From Candidatus Obscuribacterales bacterium (GTDB lineage Bacteria > Cyanobacteriota > Vampirovibrionia > Obscuribacterales > Obscuribacteraceae): a DNA stretch of 61,052 bases. Of the stretch, positions 19,320 to 24,884 are shown one piece after another. Position numbers and translations under genes: made by a program. Position 1 is the first letter of the stretch, and each line of letters opens with the position of its first letter. The notes below the pieces were generated by a model. The model saw nothing but the letters and a program-made list of their open reading frames with translations. It was not told the DNA's origin and did not search any database. The stretch covers positions 1 through 61,052 of the forward strand of contig JAGVKG010000036.1 of assembly GCA_020050685.1 (NCBI GenBank). The letters are read 5' to 3'.

Positions 19320-19718
19320 CTATCCTCTTTGTAGTTCTGCTAATTTCTTGGCTGAGAATTCCGATTCTGGAATATCAAAAATAAGTTTAGGCACTAAATC
19401 ACGCTGGCCGATTATTTGCATCAGTTCGCTCAGTTTGATTTTTTTGCTGTCGTAAATTATTACGGCTTTTACCGGAGTGCGGCTGGAAAGCTTGCTTTCA
19501 ATCACGCCCGGTGTTGAGTTGAATTTTTTGGCAAGAGTCATGATGCAAGCCATGCAACTTGCCCCCATCACTTTTATTTGCGCGTGACGAATACCTGCGC
19601 TTTGTACGGCTGGCTTTGCTTGACTTTGGTGCTTGACTTGCGCCAAGGTATTACCAGACAAATTTGCCCAAATGGCAAGAAAAACAATGGCGACTATAAT
19701 AAGAGATAAATTCCTCAA
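19320..19718 (-). CDS. Exported heavy-metal-associated (HMA-like) domain protein
   Basis: A signal peptide (MRNLSLIIVAIVFLAIWANL, cleaved near LAQ) is followed by an HMA-like ferredoxin fold: IKVMGASCMACIMTLAKKF, then TPGV and AVIIYDSKKIKLSELMQII. The CxxC pair in GASCMAC is the metal-binding loop, normally specific for copper or other soft metals. The TTG at 19718 is preferred over the GTG at 19763 because GAGG lies eight bases before it and the signal peptide then starts correctly. It is divergent from the TPR gene. The partner is unknown. Confidence 0.7.
   Translation of the reverse strand: MRNLSLIIVAIVFLAIWANLSGNTLAQVKHQSQAKPAVQSAGIRHAQIKVMGASCMACIMTLAKKFNSTPGVIESKLSSRTPVKAVIIYDSKKIKLSELMQIIGQRDLVPKLIFDIPESEFSAKKLAELQRG
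19695..19700 (+). promoter_or_regulatory. -10 element for the TPR/methyltransferase run
   Basis: TATAAT on the plus strand, about 50 bases before the TTG at 19752. It lies within the start of the divergent HMA-like gene. No clear -35. Confidence 0.4.
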
Positions 19719-19751
19719 CTGGAAATCCTCGCGGTCGGAGCCTAATAAATT

Positions 19752-20696
19752 TTGCGATATCACCCTACTAATTTTGGCATATTACTTTGCCTGCTTGCCA
19801 ATTTGCTTTGTGGGGTAGCCGGCAAAGAAGCCAAGCAGTCAAGCAGCCCGAATTTTGCCAGCGCTCTTAAATCAGCCGAAGATGCAGAATCGAAAGAAAG
19901 CTTTGTCGAGGCTTATGAATTGTACATCGTGGCAGGCAAGCTCAATGCCAAAGACGCAAGTGTGCCAATTGGACTGGCAGCTTGTTTGGAAGGCATGAAG
20001 GAAACCGAAGAAGCAGCACTTGTGCTTGAGCGCGCTTGTAAATCCGAGCCGAACAATATTGCCCTTTGGAGGGCTCTTTCCCAGCTTTCCGTTCGCTCAG
20101 GCGATTTTATTCGGGCAGAGCAAGCAGCCGAAAAAATGTTATCAATCAATCCCAAATCGATGGAAGCACTTTCCATCCTGGCGGATTTGCAACTGCAAAG
20201 ACAAGATGGTGATGCGGCCAGACAACTAGCCAACAAAATGATTGCCGTAGATCCACAAAACAGAGCCGGCTACATTACGCTGGCTCGCAGCTATTTCGAA
20301 GCAGATAATGATGCGGCAAAAGAAATCGCAGTTCTTGATCAAGCAACCAAAGCATTGCCTCATGATGGACAACTTTATTCTACGTTAGCTACTTACTTTC
20401 GCAATCAAGGTGACTTAGCCAATAAGAAAACTAGCGGATTACAAAAGGCAATGTTGTGGTGGCAGGTGGCCGAACGTGCTTATAAATTGGCGATTGAAAA
20501 TGAGCCAAATAACGATCGCATGCGGGTGGACTTCGCCAATTTACTTGCCGAACAACACAAATATGCAGAGGCAATTGTGCAAGCCGAAGTTGCTCTTAAG
20601 ATCAATCCGAAAAATTTGGACGCCAAAACTCTTGAGCAAAAGATTCATTCTGCCAAGAGTGATTTAGCAGGTCAGTTGAAACGTTGGCTGAAGTAA
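19752..20696 (+). CDS. Exported TPR-repeat protein
   Basis: A signal peptide (FGILLCLLANLLCGVAG) precedes about six to seven tetratricopeptide-like repeats (each near 34 residues, with A-x-x-L and A-L-x-x-x-P positions), which form a protein-binding solenoid. The start is TTG at 19752; the reading is supported by the signal peptide. Its stop overlaps the next gene by 13 bases, so translation is probably coupled. The binding partner is unknown. First of a four-gene run to 23876. Confidence 0.8.
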   Translation: MRYHPTNFGILLCLLANLLCGVAGKEAKQSSSPNFASALKSAEDAESKESFVEAYELYIVAGKLNAKDASVPIGLAACLEGMKETEEAALVLERACKSEPNNIALWRALSQLSVRSGDFIRAEQAAEKMLSINPKSMEALSILADLQLQRQDGDAARQLANKMIAVDPQNRAGYITLARSYFEADNDAAKEIAVLDQATKALPHDGQLYSTLATYFRNQGDLANKKTSGLQKAMLWWQVAERAYKLAIENEPNNDRMRVDFANLLAEQHKYAEAIVQAEVALKINPKNLDAKTLEQKIHSAKSDLAGQLKRWLK

Positions 20697-21739
20697 AATC
20701 GATTCATTACTATCGCTTGCTGAAAACGGCAACTAGCATTGCTTACATTGCGCTGTTGGTTTTAACCTGGCGATTTTTTGCCGGCGAACTTTATTGGCGC
20801 ATTGGTATTGCCGCGGCTGTACTCAATTTTTGCTGGCTGATTGTCACCAGTTTGCAAATCAACCATTTGCTAAAGACTTACTTTGACATTCTGTCTCGTC
20901 TGGAAATTACAATACCAATCACCTTGGGTGTACTTCTTTCAATTATCAGTTTACACTCGGCAATTCACCAGGAAGTGAGATTTGTGGCAGTGGCTGAACT
21001 GGGTGCCTGGGCAATTGTTTATGGTGCCTATCGGGCAAATCGCAAAAAATTTGTTAAGCAAGGACATGGTCCGATGCCAATTGGCACTTGGGTAAGTCCG
21101 CCAGCCAAAGTTTTATTACCTGGCGATCTATTACTTACCTCCGGACGCGTTGCTGCTAATTTGCACGAATGTGTTGGTCATGCGGAATTGGCAATCAAGA
21201 TGACCGATGGCAGGATGGACGCATTTAGCTCTTATATGACAAAGGGCATAGTCCTCAATCCACTTGCGGCAGTTGCCTCAGCGACTTTGCGCGACGGACA
21301 TTATATCGTACTGAGGCTCGCTAAGCCAATGACGGAAGAACAAGTCAGAAAGGCTGCCCAAGTTGCCAGCCAAATGCAAAAGGAGAATATGGCATGGCGA
21401 GACATGGTTAACCAAAGAATCAAGAAAGGTCTAAATCTCTTGCCGTTGTCATCCGCTTTGCAAGCAAGGCTTTACGACTACCTGAAACAAACCGGATACG
21501 ACTATGTCGGTTTATTCATGGGCAGGCTTACCCAAGATCATTGGACCTGTATTGCTGCCTGCCTGGAATTATATAAACGTGTTGGTATTACAACCCGTCC
21601 TTACGGTACAGGCCTATTAGGATTAGGCAGTACAATATTTGATCCAATCATGCCGGTACGATTTCTTGACGATCCAGCATTTGAACTTTTGACCAAAACT
21701 TATGAGGAGAATTCAAACAATGCAGTGGCAAATGGCTAA
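20684..21739 (+). CDS. Membrane-anchored papain-like (YiiX/YaeF type) hydrolase candidate
   Basis: Four hydrophobic helices occupy about 13-31, 37-57, 73-91 and 97-112. The soluble part starts with LLPGDLLLTSG (145-154), then GHAELAI with His166, then DAFSSYM, LNPLAAVASATLRDGHYIVLRL, and a late Cys pair (C289/C293 in WTCIAACLELYKRVG). GD(L/I)...GH...C order is that of circularly permuted papain-fold amidases such as YiiX/YaeF. The assignment rests on that order and is not certain. TTG start; 13-base overlap with the TPR gene and 20-base overlap with the next start. Confidence 0.6.
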   Translation: MAEVKSIHYYRLLKTATSIAYIALLVLTWRFFAGELYWRIGIAAAVLNFCWLIVTSLQINHLLKTYFDILSRLEITIPITLGVLLSIISLHSAIHQEVRFVAVAELGAWAIVYGAYRANRKKFVKQGHGPMPIGTWVSPPAKVLLPGDLLLTSGRVAANLHECVGHAELAIKMTDGRMDAFSSYMTKGIVLNPLAAVASATLRDGHYIVLRLAKPMTEEQVRKAAQVASQMQKENMAWRDMVNQRIKKGLNLLPLSSALQARLYDYLKQTGYDYVGLFMGRLTQDHWTCIAACLELYKRVGITTRPYGTGLLGLGSTIFDPIMPVRFLDDPAFELLTKTYEENSNNAVANG

Positions 21740-22724
21740 CAATTACAAAGCCAGCTTGGCTATTCTTGCTTTACTAGGACAAGCTCAAGTGCCAGCGCTG
21801 GCTCAGACGAATCAAAGTATTTCTACTACCGCCCCAGTCTCAGCAGTGACAGATCCGGCCACTGAAAGTGCACGCTCCTCTTTACTGAAAGCAAATTACG
21901 ATTTTCACAACGACTATGTGAAAGCGAAAAAAGAGATTATCGCTAAAGCCAATCCAATTATGATTGTCGAAGGCGACAATTTAGTATTGTTTCTCAATGG
22001 CGAACGCCAACAAACAAAATTCGTGCCAGATATTTGGCATGCCCTGAAAGAAGTTGATCACATTGCCCTGGCTGCCTATGTCATGCTGGTCAATCATTGT
22101 GATACGAGTTTGGACAACCAGACTATTCAGACACTTACCGAGTACAGAAAAGCTGTCCAAGCTGTACGTGCCAACCTAAACCAGCTCAGCTGGTCTGATG
22201 CTAATTTGAAAGATTACATCACGAGCGATGCTTTGCTAGTCCGCCAAAAACAAATTGTCGATGCGACACAAACATTTATTGATTCGGCACTCTCAGATAA
22301 GCAAATGCCGACCCAAACCCTGATCGACTTTTGCCGCAGGATGACACCATTGGTAATGGCTAATGCCGACGATGCCGAAGTAATTGAGATGAGCAACTTG
22401 AACACACAAGTGCAAAACTGGAAGAATTCCATGTCTTCTACCGATTGGGATAACATACATGTCGTAATCATGGGCGGACACATGCCGCATGATCAAGACC
22501 GCAACATTCAATATTTCTCAAAGGTCTTACATGAAGAACATGAAGGCAATCGTTGGATTTATTTGGAAGTTTGCCCGGACGAAGCTAGCGCTCTTGATTC
22601 TCTTGCCACACATCTTCTGGACAGACAAATCGGCAAGGCTTTCTTCAATAATCCCGATCGTATGCATCGCGATCTATTATCCGATTCGGCCAAGAAATAT
22701 CTCGACAAGCATCCAATCAAGTAA
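21720..22724 (+). CDS. Exported protein of unknown function
   Basis: A 334-residue product with a signal peptide (to about residue 29, ALAQ). The rest is helical: N-terminal FHNDYVKAKKEIIAKANPIM, a middle with repeated VxxxTQ-type helices, and a C-terminal part with VVIMGGHMPHDQDR and RWIYLEVCPDEASALDSLATHLLDRQIG. The GGHMPHD cluster of His and Asp could be metal-binding but no family is recognised. The ATG at 21720 has GAGGAG ten bases upstream and is preferred over the ATG at 21702. It overlaps the preceding gene's end and stands 18 bases before the methyltransferase. Confidence 0.65.
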   Translation: MQWQMANNYKASLAILALLGQAQVPALAQTNQSISTTAPVSAVTDPATESARSSLLKANYDFHNDYVKAKKEIIAKANPIMIVEGDNLVLFLNGERQQTKFVPDIWHALKEVDHIALAAYVMLVNHCDTSLDNQTIQTLTEYRKAVQAVRANLNQLSWSDANLKDYITSDALLVRQKQIVDATQTFIDSALSDKQMPTQTLIDFCRRMTPLVMANADDAEVIEMSNLNTQVQNWKNSMSSTDWDNIHVVIMGGHMPHDQDRNIQYFSKVLHEEHEGNRWIYLEVCPDEASALDSLATHLLDRQIGKAFFNNPDRMHRDLLSDSAKKYLDKHPIK

Positions 22725-22742
22725 AACTATAGGGAGCAAAAA

Positions 22743-23876
22743 ATGTCTTTGCAAGCAACGTCAATGAAGGGTGGCGGTTATTATGACCGGAACTCATCTA
22801 TTCAAGCCTCGACTAATGCCACTGCGATCCCGCTAATTCAAAAAGCAATTGAGGAAATGGATATGCCGGCGGCAGGCCAAGCCTTCACCTTAGTTGACTA
22901 TGGCTCTTCTGAGGGGAAAAATTCCGCCGAAGCCGTGGCGTCGGCAATATCTTCCTTGCAAAAGATCCGTGGCGACGAACCAATCAGTATCGTTCATAAC
23001 GATCTATTTACCAATGACTTCAACCGTCTCTTCTACAACATTTATCAAAATCCCGAGGCCAGCTATCTATTTAGATCCGCTCCGTCGTCTTCCGACTCCT
23101 CCGCTATATCGGGACAGCGACAAAAAAATGTATTTGTGACTGCATCCGGAACCTCGTTTTACGAACAAGTCATGCCGTCATCAACTGTGCATTTGGGCAT
23201 ATCTGCTTGGGCAGCCCAATGGCTTTCGCAATCTCCGGCAATTCGCATGAATCATATTTACTATGCTGGAGCTGAAGGCGAAAATCGCCAGCGCTTTGCC
23301 GAGCAAGCAGCAAAAGATTGGTTGCAGTTTTTGACAATGCGTACAAATGAACTGGTCAGCGGTGGCAAATTTGTCATGACTTTGCCTAGTCAGGTTAGCG
23401 ATCCAAACGCACTGCTTGAGCAAGTACGGTCAACCCCGGAAACCATGAACAATAAGCTGCAAGAAATGGTAGCCGAAGGTCTTATTGATAGAGACGTCTA
23501 TGAGAACTTTATCTTCCCCTATTATTTCCGCACGCTTGATGAAGCGCTTGAGCCGCTAATTAGCAAGACTTCACCTCTTTCCCAAAAGGTATCTTTAGAC
23601 TCATCTTTAGTGCAAGCAATTCCTTGCCCGATGTTTGCCGAATATCTGCGCACGAAAGACAAAGCGGTCTATGCTAATGCTTACGTATCGTGGTTAAGAG
23701 CCTGGAGCGAGCCAATCTTAGCCAAAGGAATTTTTTCACGCAGTGCTTCTTCTGAGTCGGATGCTTTTCGCATGATTGACGATTTTTATGGCCGCATTCA
23801 AGAAACTGTAGAGGCCGATCCTCTGGCGCACATATTCAAAGTCGAGGCATGCTTTCTTGTCTTCACAAAAAAATAG
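22743..23876 (+). CDS. SABATH-type carboxyl methyltransferase
   Basis: SAM-dependent enzyme of the family that methylates carboxyl groups of small acids (plant salicylate, jasmonate and indole-acetate methyltransferases; Methyltransf_7). Family landmarks appear in order: KGGGYYDRNSSIQ (9-21), VDYGSSEGKNSAE (51-63, the SAM site), VHNDLFTNDFNRLF (84-97), GTSFYEQVMPSSTVHLGISA (136-155) and WLSQSP. Length 377 aa fits. The substrate is unknown. It has AGGGAGC before the ATG and is the last of the four-gene run. No signal peptide, so it acts in the cytosol while its neighbours are exported or in the membrane. Confidence 0.85.
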   Translation: MSLQATSMKGGGYYDRNSSIQASTNATAIPLIQKAIEEMDMPAAGQAFTLVDYGSSEGKNSAEAVASAISSLQKIRGDEPISIVHNDLFTNDFNRLFYNIYQNPEASYLFRSAPSSSDSSAISGQRQKNVFVTASGTSFYEQVMPSSTVHLGISAWAAQWLSQSPAIRMNHIYYAGAEGENRQRFAEQAAKDWLQFLTMRTNELVSGGKFVMTLPSQVSDPNALLEQVRSTPETMNNKLQEMVAEGLIDRDVYENFIFPYYFRTLDEALEPLISKTSPLSQKVSLDSSLVQAIPCPMFAEYLRTKDKAVYANAYVSWLRAWSEPILAKGIFSRSASSESDAFRMIDDFYGRIQETVEADPLAHIFKVEACFLVFTKK

Positions 23877-23901: not shown

Positions 23902-24306
23902 TTATTCTGAGGATTCAGGCGGTCGTATTCTCATGCGCTCATGCAGATACTCTTCAATCTGCGGCAAAAAATCTTCCGGGCCATAAACAGGCGAAATGCA
24001 TTTGCTGGCACCCATAGCAAATGCTTCCGCATGATGCATGGTATCAACCGGCTTTGCCGCCAAGAAAACAAAAGGAAGTTCAGCAAGTGCAGCATCTGCA
24101 CGAATTTCTTTCAGCAAGTTCAAACCACTGTCGTCAGGCATGCCGGCTTCACACAATATCAGTTCCGGAAAGTTTTTGTGCGCCAAATAAACAGCCAAAG
24201 CAATTGAGCTTGCCGTAATAATGTCACAATTGAGTGGCACCAAGGTGGCCTTTACTAAGTCCTTGAGTTTGAGCGTATTGCCAAAGTAGAGAACGCGAAT
24301 ACTCAT
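23902..24306 (-). CDS. Degenerate receiver-domain (pseudo-receiver) protein
   Basis: A single CheY-like fold of 134 residues with the usual beta-alpha rhythm (VLYFGNTLKLKDLVKATL, PELILCEAGMPDDSGLNLL, LPFVFLAAK, GASKCISPVYGPEDFLPQI). The phosphorylatable Asp is Glu in LILCEAGMP. The acidic pair before it is lost (FGN), the Thr/Ser is Ala (FLAAK), and the late Lys position is Ser-Pro. It therefore cannot be an ordinary phospho-acceptor, and the Glu may mimic a permanently charged state. It overlaps the upstream gene by four bases. No kinase or output domain is seen. Confidence 0.8.
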   Translation of the reverse strand: MSIRVLYFGNTLKLKDLVKATLVPLNCDIITASSIALAVYLAHKNFPELILCEAGMPDDSGLNLLKEIRADAALAELPFVFLAAKPVDTMHHAEAFAMGASKCISPVYGPEDFLPQIEEYLHERMRIRPPESSE

Positions 24307-24704
24307 TTTGCTGGACGATAGGGTTGAAATCCAAGAAACGGTTTGCTTTGCCAGAAGGCAGCTGTGACTGTCAACGGTCCGGCAGGAGAAAGTATCAAGC
24401 GCAGAATTTTTCCCTCGAGAAACATCTCATCTATCTTTGATCCGGAAATCCAGCCCCAATCAACTGCACAGACGGCATCCGACAATTTCTCCTGTTGATT
24501 CGCTTGCTTAAGAGAAAGCGATACGAGCGGCAAATTTACCGTGCCGGCAGCTTCAATCACAACTACAGACGGCTCTTCTTGATCCTTTTGATTTTGCTGA
24601 TCTTGCGACTCCAAATAAATGGCAAATGTGTTCAAACTGGATTGCGCAAAGGCAATTGTTTTTCCTGAAAGTTTGGCAAGACTTTCTTCGCAACTGGTAG
24701 ACAA
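24303..24704 (-). CDS. Hypothetical protein coupled to the pseudo-receiver
   Basis: A 133-residue product from the TTG at 24704, which has GAGGAGA about seven bases upstream; a longer frame begins with ATG at 24737. Sequence features are a helical start (STSCEESLAKLSGKTIAFAQ), a Gln/Asp/Glu-rich linker (SQDQQNQKDQEEPS) and a beta-rich C-terminal half with GKILRLILSPAGPLTVTAAFW. No family recognised. Its stop overlaps the receiver gene start in ATGA, so the two are translated together and may act together. Confidence 0.6.
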   Translation of the reverse strand: MSTSCEESLAKLSGKTIAFAQSSLNTFAIYLESQDQQNQKDQEEPSVVVIEAAGTVNLPLVSLSLKQANQQEKLSDAVCAVDWGWISGSKIDEMFLEGKILRLILSPAGPLTVTAAFWQSKPFLGFQPYRPAK

Positions 24705-24884
24705 CTTTCTCTCCTCAAAACTCCACACCACCATCATAGCGCTAGATATATCTTGCTATCGAAAGCTAAAACTAAACACATCTGTCTTACCACCGTCAGT
24801 TGATGTTGCCAGGGCGCCTTGATTCAGGCAGCAATTCACTCTTCAAACGGCTGTCAACAGATCACGTGCCGTAATTATTCTCGC

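Follow-up and report, generated by a model that had tools for sequence, protein, structure and literature searches.

A predicted fatty acid O-methyltransferase-like SABATH enzyme in a probably lineage-specific four-gene run of a Candidatus Obscuribacterales bacterium

From sequence comparison, we consider it probable that a four-gene run in the genome of a Candidatus Obscuribacterales bacterium is a lineage-specific arrangement containing a cytosolic carboxyl methyltransferase that resembles bacterial fatty acid O-methyltransferase (FAMT), and that its four genes do not form one system. The run lies in a whole contig of 61,052 nucleotides (hereafter the window), from a host genome of 4.2 Mb that is 98.7% complete. 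The product of the last gene would be a cytosolic enzyme that uses SAM to O-methylate carboxyl groups and that falls within the FAMT-like, bacterial branch of the SABATH family. As judged from a relative of 40% identity, it would most likely form the methyl ester of a free fatty acid, either medium-chain or 3-hydroxy, or else of a comparable hydrophobic acid, and the product could then leave the cell by partition or evaporation. The gene appears to be patchily held in the family and would here end a probably co-transcribed, lineage-specific run. The three genes ahead of it, which encode an exported TPR protein, a thiol enzyme predicted to face the cytosol (PAP) and an exported protein (G3), would have separate histories. 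If correct, this reading places a FAMT-like carboxyl methyltransferase in a lineage of which few members have been cultured, with methyl esters as a testable product.

Organisation of the locus

The ORF list of the window contains four open reading frames in series, flanked on both sides by genes of the opposite orientation (Table 1). Genes 1 and 2 overlap by 13 nt; the start of PAP is either TTG 20684 or TTG 20717. Genes 2 and 3 overlap by 20 nt, or by 38 nt with the upstream start of G3 at 21702 (340 aa); the likelier start at 21720 is preceded by GAGGAG. The 18-nt gap between gene 3 and the methyltransferase gene contains a GGGAG site. Because the genes overlap or nearly overlap and opposing genes lie on both sides, a single transcript across the run is likely. 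A promoter scan gave nothing above shuffled sequence, and the promoter-like site (10/12) at 19672–19700, upstream of the run, proves nothing. The base composition of the four genes is the same as that of their surroundings, and the methyltransferase gene shows no sign of a foreign composition, its GC (0.463) and GC3 (0.459) matching those of its neighbours. The product of the left boundary gene has an exported-looking N-terminus, and its GASCMAC stretch resembles a heavy-metal-associated domain; a Pfam search with this protein returned no match.

An earlier note on this DNA had read the run as a TPR protein, a membrane papain-like protein, a secreted unknown and a SABATH-type methyltransferase, and the open reading frames, their overlaps and the profile matches confirm it. 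The parts hold up individually as well: the TPR protein has the N-terminus expected of an exported protein, the GD..GH..C layout of the membrane protein is kept across 31 homologues in permuted papain-like order, the unknown bears a signal cleavage site, and the carboxyl methyltransferase assignment agrees with the family match and the retained clamp residues described below. The same note had called SABATH enzymes best known from plants, which is true of the family (a broad one, some members of which methylate nitrogen); for this particular enzyme, however, the nearest solved relative is bacterial.

Table 1. Features of the four-gene run and its flanks in the window.
Feature	Position	Strand	Basis
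Left boundary gene (147 aa), with a stretch, MGASCMAC, that resembles a metal-binding site	19320..19763	-	ORF list
Gene 1, exported TPR-repeat protein, 314 aa, TTG start, hydrophobic residues 6-24	19752..20696	+	TPR_19 E 2.9e-19
Gene 2, PAP, a 351-aa membrane protein with a permuted papain-like (YiiX/LRAT-type) domain behind four helical segments	20684..21739	+	alignment of homologues
Gene 3, exported unknown-family protein G3, 334 aa from 21720, ALA-Q signal cleavage site	21720..22724	+	alignment of homologues
Gene 4, SABATH / fatty-acid-O-methyltransferase-like carboxyl methyltransferase (predicted), 377 aa, Q21, Q159, W160	22743..23876	+	PF03492 + alignment
Right boundary gene, response-regulator receiver domain	23905..24306	-	PF00072 E 6e-8
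Small uncharacterised protein, paired with receiver gene	24306..24737	-	homologues in relatives

The predicted carboxyl methyltransferase

The product of the last gene (METHYLTRANSFERASE) matched PF03492 (Methyltransf_7) with 140.3 bits against a cut-off of 29.8 (E 1.1e-40), over model positions 2–300 of 335. Its top match in the PDB was the Mycobacterium marinum fatty acid O-methyltransferase (MmFAMT; 5f2k, E 2e-31), and the plant SABATH structures ranked below it, with E values of at least 4e-17. MmFAMT (PDB 5f2k, 5f2n, 5f2o), which comes from another phylum, is of the same family and length. The 40% identity between the two enzymes applies to 187 aligned residues in the N-terminal part only (the first ~55% of the enzyme), and is thus not strictly comparable with the full-length identities of 33–35% to the nearest homologues of its own family, 32% to Nitrospirales NPIRA03 and 22–24% to picocyanobacterial-type PF03492 proteins. 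In a small tree, no supported clade contained the window methyltransferase, and a common clade with FAMT was without support.

Both residues of the carboxylate clamp are present in the alignment: Q21 in the motif NSxxQ, and W160, which follows Q159 in SAWAAQW. We take these to be the positions of Gln25 and Trp151 that hold the carboxylate in salicylate methyltransferase. The plant salicylate (1m6e), geniposidate (8wwq) and loganate (6c8r) enzymes share PF03492 and the clamp residues with the window enzyme, but match it more weakly than MmFAMT does (E 1e-13 to 1e-16 versus 2e-31). The residue before the clamp Trp is a Gln (Q159), as in FAMT, whereas His occupies this position in other family members and in the aligned plant sequences (6lyh and 8wwq). 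The Q-to-A change in 5f2o falls at the position equivalent to Q159.

As far as its sequence tells, then, the enzyme belongs to the bacterial FAMT-like branch of SABATH, a branch that is already known and characterised, and since its closest solved relative is MmFAMT, a bacterial SABATH enzyme is not new. A literature search on bacterial SABATH found nothing direct. The substrates of MmFAMT are fatty acids of chain length C8, C10 and C12 and the corresponding 3-hydroxy acids (PMC9744835). Methylation of some other small carboxylate (an aromatic, terpenoid or dicarboxylic acid), for detoxification or as a volatile, strikes us as rather unlikely. It would be in keeping with the breadth of SABATH, with a clamp Gln/Trp pair common to salicylate-type enzymes and with the generality of the family match, but among solved structures the nearest is that of MmFAMT, with which the window enzyme has in common a Gln that is absent from the plant sequences shown.

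The picocyanobacterial-type proteins (f35; loci L068–L079), although of the same Pfam family, do not keep the clamp Gln: in these proteins, from small genomes of the same phylum, it is replaced by EGAR or EGAL and the Trp is kept, and their substrate may differ. Small genomes of 2–3 Mb with PF03492 occur in the wider phylum. In both g11 genomes, the methyltransferase gene has as its divergent partner a gene for a conserved protein of ~175 aa (ADNFQFxLQDRR; L080 8030–8557, L081 8296–8820).

The three upstream gene products

The TPR repeats of the gene 1 product follow its hydrophobic N-terminus. No specific orthologue was found at E <= 1e-25 among 60 relatives, and in this the TPR protein is unlike the other three proteins, which are conserved in relatives.

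PAP homologues were found in about 31 other family genomes, often several per genome. Among 31 aligned homologues, GD147-148 is conserved in 27–28, H166 in all 31, and Y272 and C289 in 30 each. This order of GD, His, Tyr and a C-terminal Cys is the definition of the permuted NlpC/P60 enzymes (PMC3142127), and PAP has it in common with YiiX/YaeF (Peptidase_C92, PF05708) and the LRAT-like proteins. It differs from them in having four extra N-terminal membrane helices and, at the position aligned with the polar third catalytic residue, Ser183 (28 of 31 homologues) where YiiX-like members have Glu. No Pfam or NCBIfam family matched PAP; the PF05708 profile matched none of the 31 members and nothing in the host genome. 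When the PAP profile was compared with profiles of true YiiX-type proteins (PF05708) from the same set of relatives, the match was weak, with a probability of 11% and P 0.003. It was nevertheless colinear: one alignment covered GD, His and the YxxLRL strand, and a second one paired WTCIxxCLELY with YCSELV. Judged by the layout of its sequence, PAP is a divergent YiiX/LRAT relative and not a certified member. A PDB profile search with the PAP alignment gave no credible match, and a single-sequence AlphaFold model had a mean pLDDT of 36.

The mean number of Lys and Arg residues over the PAP family is 3.7 at the N-terminus, 0.6, 3.0 and 0.9 in the successive loops, and 4.4 after the last helix. 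Under the positive-inside rule these counts predict that the catalytic domain lies on the cytosolic face. YiiX was crystallised with a fatty acid, and the permuted papain-like superfamily has hydrophobic acyl pockets (PMC3142127); LnsA, which is related to the permuted papain-like enzymes, is required for lipoprotein N-acylation (PMC7387801). By analogy with these two proteins, an acyl-handling role of PAP is plausible. Elsewhere in the host genome (contig C8:45186–50212, L092) we found four tandem, divergent PAP paralogues with 24–31% identity, and another on contig C10 (L093).

About 40 other genomes carry G3 homologues, and some of these genomes belong to a second family of the order. Twelve residues are invariant in 25 aligned sequences (K110, H114, N215, H254, M255, E275, H298, D301, R314, M315, H316 and D318), among them four His, and the motifs are GHMPR, THxLD and RMHRDLL. 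This His and acidic set suggests that G3 may be an enzyme, perhaps with a metal. Neither Pfam, NCBIfam nor PDB profiles recognised a family. The GHMPR motif led us to consider homology with TraB/GumN/Tiki (PF01963), which was rejected (hhalign probability 0.3%; no PF01963 match in the host genome). A single-sequence AlphaFold model of G3 had a mean pLDDT of 47.

Gene order in related genomes

The methyltransferase is present in 4 of 50 family genomes. At the other three loci, no match to PAP, G3 or the TPR protein was found in flanks of ~9 kb, or of shorter length where the contig ended; these genomes carry PAP on different contigs, and G3 lies elsewhere or, in two of the three, was not found. 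PAP and G3 occur together in 27 further genomes and are never adjacent, sharing a contig in only two, at distances of ~58 kb and ~129 kb. No two of the four genes were found to be neighbours in any relative searched, the relatives being members of other genera (33–56% identity, many of them draft genomes in many contigs). As a control, the receiver gene and its small partner gene (Table 1) were found adjacent in one relative, G021, by the same method.

The four-gene order, which the earlier note had proposed to follow across the lineage, is therefore not kept in the relatives searched. That note had also pictured the four products as a set that might make, release or cleave a methyl ester or acyl signal at the envelope. 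The chemistry of the parts is plausible; their working as one set is not supported by the relatives searched, and the predicted cytosolic position of the PAP domain sets it apart from the exported TPR and G3 proteins. Because no related genome searched keeps the genes together, we infer that they probably form a local, lineage-specific neighbourhood and not a conserved system. A true acyl-ester module, in which PAP frees or transfers an acyl group on the inner leaflet, the methyltransferase turns the freed acid into a methyl ester, and G3 and the TPR protein handle or cleave the product outside, seems improbable to us. Overlapping genes can be a mark of functional coupling even without deep conservation, and the same-direction run between opposing genes, the fatty acid binding of permuted papain-like enzymes and the need for LnsA in lipoprotein N-acylation, the FAMT-like character of the methyltransferase and the predicted cytosolic action of both this enzyme and PAP would all suit such a module. 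It is nevertheless at odds with the scattered positions of PAP and G3 in the other methyltransferase carriers, with the wide occurrence of both without the methyltransferase, and with the absence of any neighbouring pair. We give little credence to a genus-specific circuit in which PAP releases or transfers an acyl group, the FAMT-like enzyme makes a volatile methyl ester and exported G3 acts on this product outside; if this were true, non-photosynthetic cyanobacteria would have a pathway for acyl methyl esters. Methylation of nitrogen instead of a carboxyl group, as in the caffeine branch of SABATH, is very improbable, for although two of the next PDB matches are plant N-methyltransferases (6lyh and 6lyi), the window enzyme keeps the clamp Gln where the aligned 6lyh has Thr (NSSFT).

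With a lineage-specific run ending in a FAMT-like methyltransferase as the preferred reading, the locus is ordinary as a system, and the PAP and G3 families are its more interesting part. More durable interest would lie in these two uncharacterised families: PAP as a widespread, membrane-anchored putative thiol enzyme whose layout is close to that of the acyl-handling YiiX/LRAT proteins, and G3 as an order-wide exported family with an invariant His and acidic set, beyond recognition by Pfam or PDB profiles.

Lastly, the neighbourhood of PAP in G021 (L084, contig C1, 3305–10246) resembles that in the window. There, as in the window, the receiver pair is convergent to a PAP homologue; the two lie ~5 kb apart in a stretch of about 7 kb, and a flavoprotein gene and others lie between them in place of G3 and the methyltransferase. 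On the basis of this one genome, part of the PAP-receiver neighbourhood may be old, and the stretch with G3 and the methyltransferase would be particular to the lineage of the window. The small protein paired with the receiver is present in 26 of the 60 genomes searched, which is most of the family, and its gene is adjacent to the receiver-domain gene both in the window and in G021.
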